The notes under the pieces: generated by a model | Told to the model about the DNA's origin: nothing | Databases searched by the model: none | Seen by the model: the letters and a program-made list of their open reading frames with translations, nothing else | Translations under genes and position numbers: made by a program | Shown here: piece by piece, positions 55,919 to 64,000 of the stretch | Numbering within the stretch: position 1 is the first letter of the stretch | Layout of the letters: every line of letters starts with the position of its first letter | Source: Craspedostauros australis | Lineage: Eukaryota; Bacillariophyta; Bacillariophyceae; Mastogloiales; Achnanthaceae | NCBI GenBank assembly: GCA_026770025.1 | Contig: JAMXDE010000007.1 | Location: forward strand, 2,852,001 to 2,916,000 | Direction of reading: 5' to 3' | DNA length: 64,000 bases

Positions 55919-58899
55919 TCATATGTCCGCAGATGGCTGGCCAACCTCGTATCCTTCCTGCTGCCCAGCAGGCCTCGCCGTGTCGCCGTCTGCTGTCGCC
56001 GTTCCTGTTGCGGACGCAGCCACGCTGTGCTGGGTCAGGAGGTCCTGGGCAGTCTGGTACAGGATGGCGTTTGGCGTTTCCACGGGAGGCGGGCCCAGGA
56101 TCGCGACCGTGGCTCCGTGGTGCGCGGCTGGGCCCATCACGTGGATCAGCTGGGCTGGGGCAGCTTGGACGTTCGTTCCGATGGCGGTCGCTGTTGCGAT
56201 GGGAGCTGCGGCCACCAGCGTCGTCGCCAGTGCATACGTGCCGTGGGCCATGGCAGCGGCAGCAGCACTTGCGGGGGATGCCATCATGCCATCCGTCGGT
56301 GCATTGCCATGTGCGTTGGCGTTCAGACCCGTGTTCATGTTCATGTTCGTATTCGTATTCGTGGTGTTGTTGCCAACGTCAGCGTGGTTTTGTATCGTCT
56401 GTAGCTGTGACTGTGATGTTGGTGCGGCAGCTGTTGCTACTGTTGATGTTGATGATGATTCGCCAGCACTCTTGGATCCTTTCGCTTCCCCCTTGCCAGC
56501 ATCCGAGCGTTTCTTGCGCTCCAGATCGCCACGTCGTTCGCACACGTTGTGGGCGAGAGTGTTGTGGAATCCAATCTCACGACCCCAAGCGAATGCGAGG
56601 TCGCTGAAGTTTGCGTACGGGGTGCCGCCGCTCAGGAGCAGGATCTCCACCATCGCCTGTTGCATTGTGATTCGTTCCGTTGCGATACATTGCGTTTATT
56701 GGTTGTAGCATCGCACGAGGGAAGATGCGGCATCGGGGACAATGTGAGAATTGAGGAGGCATACGACTACTTGTCGGAACATCCGGGACAACACTTGAAG
56801 TGCGTTGGCATGACACATCGCACAATCATCAAAACATGCACGAACAAGGTGCAACAATAGATTAAAGACCATAGAGTGCTCCTCATGTGGACAACGTACC
56901 AACTGCCTTTCCCATGACTCCAGCTGCGTTCCCAAATTCTCGACGGGGTACAACCCGCGCGCACGGCGTTCGCTGTTGCGATGCCATCCCGGCTCCCGAT
57001 CGATGCCATCGCGCAGGAATGCCACCAACGGCATGATAGGCACGTCGTCGGGTGCGCGTGGCGGGTCAAGCGGGTTGTCCTTTGCGGAAATGAGCACGGG
57101 CTTGCTGGATTGCAAGCTGGACGGCTTGTAAGCGATCGAAGATGGCAAGATGCTGTCGTACACGGAATCACCCTCCGGAGATGGTGGCATGGCTGTGCCG
57201 CGCCGTCCCTTGATCTTTCCCGGTGCCATGGATGGGTAGTTCGCGTCTCGCCAATGCCGCTTGCACATGCCCTGATGGGTGCCTTGCGCTTGCTTCTCGC
57301 AGCCTGCGACCTGTGAGGAGATGGTGCGTGCATTGGAATTAGTGGGATGGAAGAGCAGGCAACCGCTCAACGCGAAATATGTGAGTTTGCTTTCTTGTTT
57401 GCTTACTTGTTTCGACATGAGCAAGATGGCATCATGTACGTATTCATTCGTTGCGACAACACCACAGTCATGGTCGTGCGCATGGCTGCATCAGAGCATA
57501 GCAGCAGACATGTGTTTGTCCATCGACTTTGCTTGGAAGGGCTTTGACAACAGGAGGTCGGGCGTTATTCCGCGGCATCCAGTGGCATTCCAAGCAACTG
57601 GAATGATCTCGCAAACAGTGATGATGATGATGATGATGATGGTGGTGGTGGCGGCGATCGAGCATAGCGCAACACGATAGCACGATGGCATGATAGCACA
57701 ATAGGACAAAGCATGCAGCAAAACGCACAGTGTTCGAATGAAAACACCATTGCATGGCAACGTACCTTGCAACGCTTGGCCTTGGCCCCGTGCCGTTGGC
57801 ACATGCCTTGCGATTTGATGACTTTCGTGCATCCAGGATGACGGCACAGGCGTCTCCTCTTGGACGGCGGCTCCTGCTGCGAAGCCATGGCCGGATCGAA
57901 GCGAACTTCATGATCCATTCCAGCGTTGGGAATGGCTTCGGCGTCCACGTTGTTCTGAACCATCTGCATGGCAAATCCTTTCGCTGCTGCGTCGATGTCT
58001 TCATCGCGCTCTGCTCTCTTTCCTCCAGTCTGTATCTCCGCGGGTTCGTTCTCCTGCAACGTGCCGGTACCTACTGGAGCGCACATGAGCACCCCTGTGC
58101 CGTCTTCTGCCTGTACTGGCGGTGGCGCAACGGGATGTGCAGTCATGATATGTGCATCATGAAGTTGCTGCTGTTGGTGTTGCTCCTGCTGCTGGTGTTG
58201 CTCCTGCTGTTGTTGCTGTTGGTGTTGCTGTTGTTGTTGTTGTAGGTCTTGGTGATGCGGCATCGACTCCTGTTGTTGATGATGCTGTTGCTGTTGCTCG
58301 TGTTGTGGATGATGTTGCACCTGCTGTTGGTGATGCTGTTGCACTTCCATGCCCATCGTTTGCACCTGAGGCTGCCCCTGAGGTTGCATCTGCATGTGGA
58401 TATGCTGTTGCTGATGTTCCTGTGCGTGCAGCTGCAGGGGTGTCTGATGATGCACCGGCATCTGCTGATCCTGGTGAACGTGGCGGCCATCATGCTGTTC
58501 TTGTTGAAAGTGAGGCTGAGCAAGGGATGGGTCCTGTGCGTGCACCTGTACTTGTGCATGTTGCTGAAGTTGTGCATGTTGCTGAAGTTGTGCTTGCGGC
58601 TGCATATGTGTTTGTGCGTGTGCTTGTGCCTGAGCTTGAATCGCTGCTTCTTCGGGGGTCTCACCTGGCACGTGAGGTACTCCGGCTGGTGCATGAACTG
58701 TTGAATGCATGGTGTTCTCTCCCATTCCCACGGAATCAACAGCCACAGCCATAGCTATGGCTGGAGAGACATCGCTGTTGCCATCGCCGTTGGTGACATG
58801 ATTGCCATTGTGTGTGTTGCCATCGTGCACAGCCACCGCTGCATGCGGCACTGCTGGCTCCACCTGATCCATTTGACCCACGTGCTCTTCTGTTGACAT
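55919..58899 (-). CDS. Polyglutamine protein with two C-x4-C / C-x2-H zinc units (WRKY19-like)
   Basis: Three exons (complement): 57766-58899, 56900-57310 and 55919-56656, GT-AG, all phase 0, giving about 760 aa. Exon 1 encodes a Gln/His-rich region (runs of Q and QH, about 90-250), an acidic/basic patch with a nuclear-localisation-like PSKRRRL, then the first unit CRHPGCTKVIKSQGMCQRHG. Exon 2 opens with the second unit, CEKQAQGTHQGMCKRHW, so the intron lies exactly between them. Exon 2 then has VPIMPLVAFLRDGIDREPGW; exon 3 begins AMVEILLLSGGTPYANFSDL and ends in Ala/Thr/Asn-rich sequence. Such zinc units are common in stramenopile nuclear proteins and probably bind DNA or partners. A transcriptional role is inference. 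Confidence 0.75.
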
Positions 58900-60094
58900 G
58901 CTTGAACAATGAAGGCTGATGTGCTGATGGGCAGCTGGAAGATTGTTCGAAGAAAGTTGGTAAGGGCTGGAAGACAGTCGATGACAATTGGAGCAACTGA
59001 CAATGAAGTTGAAAACGAGGCTTTCAACTGGGTCTGATGATCTCCACGCCGACCTCCTCTCTTTGCGTTTCCTCAGTTGACTCTTGTGTCGATTTGCTGA
59101 GAGGTCTCGATTGCTGGAGCTGCTGCTTCAGGTACGTTCCAGGCAGTGGTGCGGACGGCCGGACACTGCTGTCGCTGTACTCGCGATGCCGAAGAATACT
59201 TGATGTGGATACTTGTTGAGTCCACTTGTGTCAGTGCGAGTAGATCGTACCTTGTTGGTAGAGAGTACTTCTATTGGTATGGCAGGGTGCTCGTCAGTGC
59301 TGTGTGTGCTGAAAGCACGAGTAGTTGCAGAGTAGCTGCTCTGTGCTCGCGCAAAGTGGAAAGAGTGGGAGAAAGAAGGAACGAAGATTGAGCAGAGATG
59401 TGTGGAAGCGAAGTTGTGGAGACGATCCGAGGATGGTATCTTTGGTGTCTCATCAAATAGCTCAAACTGCGAGTTCGAGCTCCTCTCTTGCCTTCGCAGG
59501 GCCTTCTTGGTTTGTCTTGTTGTTGTTGTTGCTGTTGTGGGAGCCCACTCGCTCTTCGCGAACTTCTTGTGTGCTGATCGTGTTTGGCGCTGTCGTCCTC
59601 GTTGTTGTTGTTTCTTGTGCTTGTTGTGAATCGTGAAGAATTCTGCCACGATCTACGACTACAAGTTCTCGTGTTTGTTGTGGCGTGTGGTTTGTCAATT
59701 CTCGATACATCAACAGAAGTATTGTAAGAAACCAAAGTGTACATCGACGATGGTACTAATTTCAATCAAGTCTAGAAACTCTGATCTCCTCTCCAGAGCT
59801 CTCGCTTGTCTGGATGACGCGGCAATGTGGTTACTGCAGGATGGAAGCAGACGCATGGACCAATGGTGCTTGCAAACTTGCATGCAGCGTCGAATGTTGG
59901 CAGTGTGTGTAGCATTCGATGCGATTGTATCAGAGGAGGGAAGAGAGCATATTGATTCCAGTCCCGCACGTGACCCGACTGACCGGCGTACGCAAAGTGC
60001 GCACCTCGCGCCCACTTTCCTCCTAGAGCAGATCAAGACACTAGCAGGAGCCAAGACCGCAACTCCTCAGCTCAGCAATGTAATATCTCATAAT
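58900..60094. other. Zinc-finger gene promoter and probable 5' LTR region
   Basis: The left part is the upstream region of the zinc-finger gene. The right part should contain the 5' LTR of the copia element, but only one LTR could lie in this window, so its ends cannot be set by comparison. TTGTTG runs occur near 59517-59537 and 59602-59612. No gene is supported. Confidence 0.4.
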
Positions 60095-60151
60095 ATTAGC
60101 GAACAACATTGATTCACACACTACTCGTCTTATTGACAGTTGTTCGCTAAT
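60095..60151. repeat. 13-bp perfect inverted repeat before gag
   Basis: ATTAGCGAACAAC (60095-60107) and its exact reverse complement (60139-60151) are separated by 31 nt, 56-112 nt before the Gag ATG. This could be an RNA stem in the element's leader or an LTR-edge feature. Confidence 0.6.
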
Positions 60152-60206
60152 AGGCAACGTTTGAAAATCTCGGTCACCAAGACCAGCATCACCAAAAATC
60201 ATCACC

Positions 60207-61370
60207 ATGGCCAACAGCCACAAGAAGATCCTCGCCACCTTTCCACAGGCAATCGTCGAACCCATCGTCGGGGTACCCACATACGAGTCCATCGCAGAAC
60301 TCAATGTAGTCCTCAACGCCAATGCGGCCTCAGTACACTGCCCACTCGGAAACGGCCAGCTTGGATACCTGGTCCTCACCGTCTCCCGAGAGGTGTACCA
60401 AGAACACTCGGCGACAGCATTCGTCGTGCCGGTCAATCCAGGACCGCACCCGAACATCCCGAACGCAGCCACTGCAGCCCAGATCAGCGCCGCCACCAGC
60501 ATCCACAAGGAACAAGAGCGCCTATGGAGAGAGTACCGCGCGGTCGACAACGCCCTCAAGCAGCAGCTTCTTGGCGCCATTGAAGACCAGTACGTGCGAA
60601 CTCTCCGCCACAACATCGTCGGATACGCCAACGTCACGACACTCGAGCTGCTGACCCACCTGTACTCCACGTATGGCAAAATCACACCGCAAGACCTCGA
60701 CGAAAACGACAAGGCCATGAAGACCCCGTACGATCCGACGGCGCCGTTCGAAGTGCTCGTCGCCCAAATCGAGTCTGCGCGCGATCTTGCGGCTGCCGCC
60801 AAAGCACCGTACGCAGATCACCAGCTCGTCACCACGGCATACAACCTGGTGTTCCGAACACAAGCGTTCCCCGAAGCATGCCGTTCTTTCCGTGCTCTCA
60901 GTGCCGCCGACAAGACATGGGCTCGCTTCAAGAAGGATTTCGCTGCAGCTCACCAAGACCTCCGCGAATCGCAAGCCACGGCGACGGGAGCCAACTTCCA
61001 AGGAGCCAATGCGGCGATCACCGCCACGGAAACCGCAGACGCGCTCGCCAACCTCGCATCCGCCACGGCCGCGGGTCGCAGCACCGTAGCACAGCTCACC
61101 GAGAGCAACGCCAACCTCGTCAAGCAATTGTCGGAGATCACGGCAATGGTGTCCCAGCTGCAAGCCAATGCGGCCACGAGCAGCGGCACAGGAAGCAAGA
61201 AGGGAGGGCGCAAGCACAAGCACAACTCCTACTGCTGGACACACGGGTACAAGGTGGGCATCACGCACACCAGCGCGACGTGCATGAACCCAGCACCAGG
61301 ACACAAGAAGGAGGCCACTCGCAACAACACGATGGGAGGATCCACCGAAGGCGCCCCGACGAACGCGTGA
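60207..61370 (+). CDS. Copia Gag (nucleocapsid) polyprotein
   Basis: 387-aa Gag that forms the virus-like particle and packages element RNA. The N-terminal half is helical (capsid-like), with HKEQERLWREYRAVDNALKQ and TTLELLTHLYSTYGKITP, the latter a typical copia Gag (UBN2-like) block. An Ala/Thr-rich coiled region follows. A basic GSKKGGRKHKHN stretch leads to a compact Cys/His motif, YCWTHGYKVGITHTSATC, that stands in for the CCHC knuckle. It ends at a TGA (61368-61370). The next codons continue in the same frame into protease, so Gag and Pol are divided by one stop only. Confidence 0.9.
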   Translation: MANSHKKILATFPQAIVEPIVGVPTYESIAELNVVLNANAASVHCPLGNGQLGYLVLTVSREVYQEHSATAFVVPVNPGPHPNIPNAATAAQISAATSIHKEQERLWREYRAVDNALKQQLLGAIEDQYVRTLRHNIVGYANVTTLELLTHLYSTYGKITPQDLDENDKAMKTPYDPTAPFEVLVAQIESARDLAAAAKAPYADHQLVTTAYNLVFRTQAFPEACRSFRALSAADKTWARFKKDFAAAHQDLRESQATATGANFQGANAAITATETADALANLASATAAGRSTVAQLTESNANLVKQLSEITAMVSQLQANAATSSGTGSKKGGRKHKHNSYCWTHGYKVGITHTSATCMNPAPGHKKEATRNNTMGGSTEGAPTNA

Positions 61371-64000
61371 CAAACGCGGCAGGATCACAGTAAGCAAGTA
61401 GCACTCTCTGTTACTACTTCATCATCCTGTGCTCCTGCCCTCGCCATAGTTGACTCTGGTTGCACTAGTCATTTCCTGCGACCTGAAGATCCATGCATTG
61501 GCCAAACACCCGACGATAACCCATTATCGGTGTCGTTGCCCGACGGATCCAACATCCAATCTTCCCACCGAGCCACGGTCAGCATTGCCAATGTACCGCA
61601 GCATGCGTGCACCGCGCGAGTTTTTCCACAACTTTCCAGCGCGGCGCTTGTGTCGGTGGGACAGCTGTGTGACCACGGCATGACGGTTGACTTCGACCAA
61701 GAATCCGTGAGAATTCGAAAAAACGGAAACACGATTCACACCGGTTGTCGGCATCAAGTTGACGGCATGTATCGCATCGACATCCAACCGCCGAAGCCTA
61801 CATCGCCAAAACTGGCCAATCACGTCCATCACACGTCAACCAAGATGGAACTGGCCAAATATTACCACCAGTGCTGCTTCAGCCCCGCGGTATCCACGTT
61901 CACGGCGGCCATCAAGAAAGGATTCTTTTCGTCTTGGCCCGGACTGACCGAACAATTGGTGCGAAAATTCCTTCCACCCTCAACGGCAACTGCGGCTGGG
62001 CACCTACGCCAGCAGTACCAGAACACGCAGTCCACACGCAATCACTGTAACCACGTCACCCAGCCCACCAAGAATCCCACGGAACAACGCGAAATCTTCA
62101 TGGATGTTTATCGGCCAACAGGCAAAATCTTCACCGATCAAACAGGCCGATTCCCAGTGACGTCAAGCCGTGGATACCAGTACATCATGGTGTTGTACGA
62201 CCATGACTCCAACGCGATTCTTTCACGCCCACTACGCAGTCGGCACGCAACGGAACTCACGCGAGCGTGTGACGAACTTTTGACGGTTCTCCTTCGGAGC
62301 GGAATGACACCGCGATTCCACCGGCTCGACAACGAGGCGCCGAAAGAACTCAAGCACCTCATCGAATCCAAAGGTATCCAATACCAGCTTGTACCACCAG
62401 GCATTCATCGGCGCAACGCTGCAGAGAGAGCCATCTCAACTTGGAAAGACCACTTCATCGCAGGACTGGCCACAGCCGACGAAGCATTTCCGCTTCATCT
62501 GTGGTGTCAACTCCTCCCCCAATGCGACATCACACTCAACCTGATGCGACCGTCGCGAGTCAACCCGCACATCTCGGCACATCATGCCCTCCACGGCAAC
62601 TTCGACTTCAACGCAACACCAATGGCACCGCCAGGCACCAAGGCCGTCATCCATGACAAACCCAGCAAGCGAGCCACGTGGGCACCGCACGGATCCGCCG
62701 GATGGTACATAGCACCAGCACTCGAACACTACCGATGCTACAAGGTGTATTGCAACAAAACGAGGAAGATCCGGATCACCGACACCATCGAACTCATGCC
62801 AAGCAAGTGCGCCATGCCCACACCAACCAACGCAGAGATGGCCATCAAGGCGGCAGGCGACCTCGCCACCGCACTCACCAAGCCGTGCGCACCACTACAG
62901 TCCATTGGCGACGAGCAACTCGGAGCACTCCAGCAGCTCAGCGACATCTTCCAGCAGGCGCTCCCCGCGACGCCCACAGCGCCACTTCCGAGGGTGCACA
63001 CCGAGCCACCTCCGAGGGTGCTCACCACGGCCAGCAGTGGCACCAACAACAAACGCGTCACCTTCGCGACGCCGGCGCGCACACCTCCGAGGGTGCCCCA
63101 AACCACACCGCAAGTCACAGACGACGAAGCCGACTCCGAACCAGAATCGGACGACGACGACGACGACGACGACAGCGCCAACACGGGAGCACCTCCCACA
63201 GGCCATTCCGCAACAACGCCACGCACACGACTGCGCACCGGCACCATCCAGCGCAAGCAATGGGCACGCGGAGCCACCACCGCAAACGCAGTCATCGACG
63301 AACGCACGGGAACGGCATACGAATACCGGCACCTCATCGCTGGCAAGGTTCATGGCCACACCCCGCAACAATGGTACACATCCTTCGCAAACGAGATCGG
63401 GCGTCTCGCACAAGGCGTCGGAACCCGCATCCCAGCATCGGCGGCAACCAACACCATCTTCTTCGTCCCAAGATCGGCAGTACCACGAGATCGCACCGTC
63501 ACATACGGCCGCATCGTCTGCGCCGTACGACCACAAAAAGCGGAAACACATCGCACGCGCCTCACCGTAGGAGGAAATCTCATCGATTACCCCTTCGACG
63601 TGCACACACCCACCGCCGAACTCACCACCGCGAAGTGTTTGTTCAACAGCGTCGTCTCCACACCGAATGCGAGATTCATGACCATCGACATCAAGGATTT
63701 TTATCTGAACACCGAAATGGACAGATACGAATACATGCGAATGCCAATGACAATGCTGCCACCAGAGATCATCGAACAATACCAGCTCCGGAACTTGGAA
63801 CACAACGGCAACGTCTACGTCGAAGTGCGAAAGGGCATGTACGGGCTACCACAGGCGGGCAAAATCGCAAATGTGAAGCTCCAAAAACACCTCGCGAAAT
63901 TCGGGTACAGGCCAGTCCCACACACTCCAGGATTGTGGAAGCACGACTGCAGACCCATCACATTCACTCTCGTGGTAGACGACTTCGGAGTCAAATACGT
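61371..64000 (+). CDS. Copia Pol (protease-integrase-reverse transcriptase), runs off the window
   Basis: Hand translation from the codon after the Gag stop shows no stop through base 64000 (876 codons). Retropepsin: AIVDSGCTSHF (Asp codon at 61452). Integrase zinc region: near 61860-62010 with FFSSWPGLTEQLVRKFLPPS. Integrase core: Asp at 62136 (FTDQTGRFP), Asp at 62328 (HRLDNEAPKE), Glu at 62424 (NAAERAIST). A Pro/Thr-rich linker repeats PPRV and ends in an Asp run (63151-63174). Reverse transcriptase starts near 63600 (TPTAELTTAKCLFN, FMTIDIKDFYLN) and reaches VVDDFGVKY at 63975. The first in-frame ATG (61680) lies after the protease active site. Expression therefore needs readthrough of the TGA at 61368, or this copy is a stop mutant. 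Confidence 0.9.

Follow-up and report, generated by a model that had tools for sequence, protein, structure and literature searches.

A conserved in-frame UGA between gag and pol suggests programmed readthrough in copia-type retrotransposons of the diatom Craspedostauros australis

The stretch of the Craspedostauros australis genome analysed here (the window: 64,000 nucleotides of contig JAMXDE010000007.1, assembly GCA_026770025.1, positions 2,852,001 to 2,916,000 of the forward strand) closes with a mobile element that is best explained as a Ty1/copia-type long terminal repeat (LTR) retrotransposon with gag and pol in one frame and, between them, a UGA kept by selection. All its features lie on the plus strand. 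The gag gene (60207..61370; 387 codons at 60207-61367 plus TGA, product MANSHKK...APTNA) was recognized from its open reading frame translation and from 179 homologues in metagenomes, and it carries a Cys/His motif (C-W-T-H ... H ... C; 61233..61283) whose columns are invariant or nearly so among 27 aligned Gags. It ends AAC GCG TGA, with the stop at 61368..61370, and the codon directly after it, CAA, opens a pol frame of 876 codons that fills the rest of the window (61371..64000). A preliminary description of this DNA, made from the letters alone, gave the same coordinates and the same frame. It also stated that no ATG precedes the protease, which holds for this copy: counted in the translation, an Asp-Ser-Gly motif that we take to be that of the protease occupies codons 28-30 (61452..61460, by eye) and the first Met is codon 104. 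The frame is indeed open to the window edge, as described, but it meets a TAG 103 codons further on, at codon 979. Of the 17 other copies introduced below, 15 have a frame of 1263-1332 codons here, and the Pol of the window copy is therefore damaged. A reverse transcriptase match (RVT_2, Pfam PF07727) covers 63549..63986 with an E-value of 1.2e-6 and 28.7 bits, under the curated cut-off of 31.6. The order of the Pol parts, which agrees with the protease, integrase, reverse transcriptase succession of Ty1/copia elements, can be read in sequence L028, where the protease motif at codon 28 is accompanied by Pol_BBD (codons 26-103), SH3_retrovirus (418-475) and RVT_2 (714-865), the three Pfam matches having significant E-values and all falling under their curated cut-offs. 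No integrase catalytic-core profile was reported in the Pfam search of Pol, and a PDB sequence search with the window Pol returned 0 matches.

Is the stop a property of the element or an accident of one copy? A DNA search of the species' own genome (74.8 megabases in 90 contigs) with the junction gave 18 places, window copy included, which are referred to here as family A. The junction reads TGA followed by C in 18/18 copies, and Pol continues in the Gag frame in every one of them. DNA identity to the window copy goes down to 75%, and in the most diverged copy (L018) protein identity is 60% for Pol and 48% for Gag. Synonymous divergence (dS) among the compared pairs spans 0.10-1.68. The ratio of nonsynonymous to synonymous divergence (dN/dS, Nei-Gojobori) is 0.11-0.30 for gag in six copy pairs and 0.07-0.19 for the first 600 codons of pol in five pairs, with the sixth pair too divergent for the calculation; Gag and Pol of family A are thus under purifying selection. 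In 14 of the 18 copies the junction TGA is the sole internal stop, since Gag (398 or more codons, measured stop to stop) and Pol (1263 or more) are both open. The other four are the window copy, L022 (Pol of 883 codons), L023 (a stop within gag) and a copy at C2:3810603 (a Pol stop after 130 codons). One fully open copy (L011/L034) is flanked by two LTRs of 188 base pairs that are 100% identical, which points to a recent insertion that already had the TGA. Comparison with sibling copies had been put forward in the preliminary description as the check on its readthrough proposal, and the outcome, no sense codon at any of the 18 junctions and a shared frame across this range of dS, lends that proposal support while leaving the readthrough step itself a conjecture from sequence. 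Frameshifting between gag and pol was considered and rejected, as the Gag frame runs on into Pol in all copies. A pseudogene reading was rejected at the level of the family, given the 14 copies open in both genes, even though the window Pol is damaged.

What follows the stop? In family A, a stem is predicted whose 5' arm (61378..61390) and 3' arm (61427..61439) are separated from the UGA by a spacer of 7 nucleotides (61371..61377). The span proposed earlier for the junction, 61359..61470, does contain the junction and both arms (61378-61439), but the stem had gone unnoticed. Minimum-energy folds, controlled with 40 shuffles each, place the start of the main stem exactly 7 nucleotides past the TGA in 10/10 distinct junctions, some folds adding a few outer pairs inside the spacer. 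In the alignment of these ten junctions standard pairs account for 95.0% of 120 cells, compared with 33-46% when the partner is slid by 1-3 columns. The codons of the two arms show 3 synonymous changes where 23.6 are expected, which ranks 5th among 979 placements of the same two-block shape; the ten pairs compared overlap, being drawn from 8 copies, and hence are not independent, and other spots poor in synonymous change exist in gag and pol, some of them lower than the arms. Fold z-scores (200 shuffles per junction, 25 per control window) are -4.37 for L001 (1 of 144 control windows as low or lower), -2.76 for L008 (6/144), -2.87 for L010 (2/166) and -4.31 for L012 (1/220).

Family A is not the only copia family of this genome with such a junction. 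An RVT_2 profile search scored the best 150 of 1493 candidates, so that copy numbers are lower bounds and the copia families given here are some of those present, and junction regions were read at nine RVT_2 places and then at two more. In family B (L058-L061) Gag is closed by an in-frame TGA followed by C; there are 26 matches, 24 of which span the junction and were read, with TGA in 22. In family C (L063, L065) the in-frame stop of Gag is a TGA with A behind it, found in all 8 junctions read out of 17 matches, the remaining 9 scoring equal to the query's match to itself. Its relative, family D (L064), has 5 matches, all read and all with TGA followed by A. Taking all families together, 55 junctions were read, of which 53 have TGA and 2, both in short fragments, a sense codon. 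The Gags of B, C and D are distantly similar to one another (about 28% for the pair B and C, about 50% for C and D), and the Gag of the window family has no similarity to them by BLASTP (best E 0.84). A stem is predicted in these families too, one nucleotide closer to the stop. In C and D it begins 6 nucleotides past the TGA, and 98.6% of 70 cells pair in an alignment of seven sequences, compared with 31-57% when slid. In B a stem at the same distance is the predicted fold at 100 nucleotides. The z-scores are -2.88 and -2.06 for B (2 and 6 of 71 control windows as low), -2.86 and -2.38 for C (1/64 and 3/65) and -2.48 for D (3/64). A separate feature of family C, seen by eye, is a hydrophobic stretch of Pol right after the TGA, unlike family A (L063 842-1000, L065 829-990). 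Separation by UGA is common in this genome and not universal, since two further copia families show no stop at the expected place in the codons read: L062, a frame of 1499 codons of which 296 were read and hold Gag domains, and L098, the start of a 2083-codon frame with a presumed Gag, of which 329 codons were read. One more family, L066 (sibling type L097), has a Pol frame of 1361 codons; in L066 a TGA lies between two frames, at an ambiguous place relative to Gag, and the family is kept outside the count of 55.

Relatives in metagenomes extend the picture at the level of proteins. The search that gave the 179 Gag homologues admitted proteins of up to 1.75 times the query length, so full Gag-Pol fusions could not appear in it. 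Among the best 120 of the 179, 107 reach a C-terminal MGGS motif, and in 102 of these Gag ends 7-15 residues from the first residue of the motif (the other five tails measure 0, 19, 22, 22 and 29). The position of the Gag end is thus kept across a wide clade, as read from proteins, in which stop codon and frame are not visible. Pol has 908 homologues, and among the best 120 of them a single one (P0231) is fused to Gag. A search from the Gag part of P0231, which covered the neighbourhood of that protein, brought the fused Gag-Pol frames to five (P0231, P0241-P0244). All five carry Trp exactly at the usual Gag end, encoded by TGG or by TGA under another code, two options that a protein sequence does not distinguish. 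Among the viral contigs and genome contigs searched for related DNA, no relative was found.

Elements with this arrangement have been described in other hosts. The closest is Tca2 of Candida albicans, also of Ty1/copia type, with gag, an in-frame UGA and pol in one frame and an 8-nucleotide spacer followed by structured RNA, for which a pseudoknot was proposed (PMC2194720). It differs in its fungal host and its purine-rich spacer; the diatom element has a plain predicted stem at 6-7 nucleotides, with comparative support. The Ty3/gypsy elements Tj1 and Tosmo/Tcry1 of fission yeasts share an in-frame TGA followed by C and a Pol without AUG, and for Tj1 the stop is required for activity (PMC4600332, PMC10085805). 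For Tj1 a self-priming sequence has been proposed, and the window family has a candidate for one (see below). These elements differ from the diatom ones in their gypsy domain order and fungal host, and their strictly conserved 8 base pairs around the TGA contrast with the diatom families, where sequence varies and spacing is kept (PMC4600332, PMC10085805). In murine leukaemia virus, too, a single stop divides gag and pol of the same frame and is followed by a spacer and a structure; this animal retrovirus uses UAG and a pseudoknot, and its readthrough was measured at 5% (PMC2194720), whereas for the diatom we infer readthrough. The CoDi elements are Ty1/copia-like and have diatom hosts; they are likened here by description, as the available part of the source specifies neither the stop codon nor its conservation and proposes no readthrough (PMC2806351). 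The type of mechanism is therefore already known from Tca2, Tj1 and murine leukaemia virus, and its use in a diatom with this comparative evidence was not found in the literature searched. The preliminary description had said that readthrough was not known as a described feature of diatom copia elements, and a search at the level of titles and the beginnings of abstracts found no report of diatom gag-pol readthrough; overlap with the 2003 survey of recoding in LTR retrotransposons by Gao and colleagues is possible.

How would Pol be made from such an element? Programmed readthrough of the UGA is very probably the best explanation of the junction, judged from sequence comparison. Most ribosomes would stop at the UGA and yield Gag, while a minority would decode it with a near-cognate transfer RNA, probably aided by the RNA stem 7 nucleotides past the stop (6 in the sister families). 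The readthrough product would be a Gag-Pol fusion whose Pol part starts with the protease, and the size of this minority would set the amount of enzyme made. A single frame, a kept stop, coding sequence on both sides, a structure at a distance near that of Tca2 and, in the window copy, the lack of a Met before the protease all fit this mechanism. Several observations weigh on the other side. The Tca2 junction alone gave no readthrough in Saccharomyces cerevisiae (PMC2194720), which makes how copia elements of this kind pass the Gag stop an open question. A sense codon replaces the junction TGA in two short family B fragments, L083 and L084, which also share their other changes, and the base following the UGA in C and D is not the C of families A and B. 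The support for the stem is uneven as well. Covariation in family A is weak, with a double change in 2 pairs, a score reached by 16 of 500 shuffles and one that a slide of +3 equals; the fold of L018 is weak, its z of -1.97 being reached by 18/200 control windows. In family B covariation is no better than in shuffles (76/500) and the stem is not the predicted fold at 70 or 85 nucleotides. In C and D covariation is clear, with 4 of 10 pairs altered on both sides and a score reached by 0/500 shuffles, but these compensatory changes amount to few events because all of them separate the same two groups of copies.

Could Pol be reached in another way? The first alternative is separate expression of Pol from a point past the Gag stop, through reinitiation, internal ribosome entry or an internal promoter. 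The Tca2 junction was found to contain a weak promoter (PMC2194720), an in-frame ATG directly behind the TGA would permit reinitiation at 6 of the 13 C and D junctions read, and several metagenomic Pol frames, as predicted, carry a Met before the protease motif. However, the other 7 junctions have no such ATG, the first Pol Met of the window copy lies behind the protease motif, and separate initiation leaves unexplained why in each of the 18 family A copies Pol keeps to the frame of Gag and is open directly past the stop; this route is very improbable. Splicing is the second alternative: removal of an in-frame intron of 129 nucleotides (61254-61382) would take the UGA out of part of the RNA and give Gag-Pol. 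The GT at 61254 and the AG at 61381 are each present in 18/18 copies of family A, their distance is a multiple of three, and splicing is what sets the Gag to Pol ratio in Drosophila copia (PMC2194720). Yet the GT opens a codon for Val, a residue missing from 60 of the 109 homologues that are aligned at this point (an approximate count from a MAFFT column); the cut would also divide the Gag Cys/His motif, and on these two grounds splicing is very unlikely in family A. In addition, the AG sits within a stem arm and, by eye, no pyrimidine tract precedes it. Might UGA simply be a sense codon, through selenocysteine or a changed genetic code? The Trp of the five fused metagenomic frames could be taken that way, but the 15 long Pol frames (1263-1332 codons) contain no further TGA, TGA is the terminal stop of 5 of them, and an Rfam scan of L001, L011 and L018, in which some 3' ends lie outside coverage, found no family at cut-off; this reading is hardly credible. 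Finally, the preliminary description's own alternative, a recent C-to-T nonsense mutation that killed a fused Gag-Pol element, can point to the damaged window Pol, the sense codon of the two B fragments and the five fused metagenomic frames, but it is refuted for family A by a TGA common to 18/18 copies at dS up to 1.68, 14 of them otherwise open in both genes, and can practically be discarded.

The ends of the element hold a second feature of interest. The 5' LTR occupies approximately 59950..60138, as homology begins at 59949-59953 in 15 of the 17 siblings (L006 begins at 60023 and L018 has no match in the region) and the LTRs of L011 end in the same motif. The 3' LTR of the window copy was not found within 1,000 bases past the window. 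Directly behind the 5' LTR, 14 nucleotides (60139..60152, a candidate primer-binding site) match exactly, as reverse complement, a segment of the LTR that lies 31 nucleotides upstream (60094..60107, a candidate self-primer). This inverted repeat is perfect over 13-15 base pairs in 17/18 copies and has one mismatch in the eighteenth. In L018 the two arms remain fully complementary although 5 of 15 positions differ. From its sequence the arrangement resembles self-priming of the Tf1 type, here within a copia element; among plants, the copia elements TAR, Houba and Osr-1 are described as self-priming (PMC6317226).

Upstream of the element, the window contains a minus-strand open reading frame of 520 codons, rich in Gln and His (57565-59127). 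Elsewhere in the genome, a profile search for PF03842, the silicon transporter family, which is linked to diatoms, gave 88 matches (for example G000:C11:710408-712021), in keeping with a diatom host. Of these, 32 extend over at least 480 of the 513 profile positions, and 28 of the 32 have no internal stop. This abundance may be due to a large expansion of the family, or it may stem partly from haplotypes left uncollapsed.

What would UGA readthrough mean beyond this element? On balance, and by a modest margin over doubt, it may be an old switch between gag and pol, general among the copia elements of marine protists and present in at least two Gag lineages that BLASTP does not connect and in many metagenomic relatives with the same motif at the Gag end. 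The switch would consist of a minimal cassette, the UGA, 6-7 nucleotides and a stem, in which sequence turns over and geometry is kept, and in the window family it would be joined to self-priming like that of Tf1 and Tj1. A diatom genome that holds dozens of diverged copies from several families with one geometry offers a natural series for reading such a signal by comparison, and the junction would provide a stramenopile candidate for a conserved signal of readthrough.

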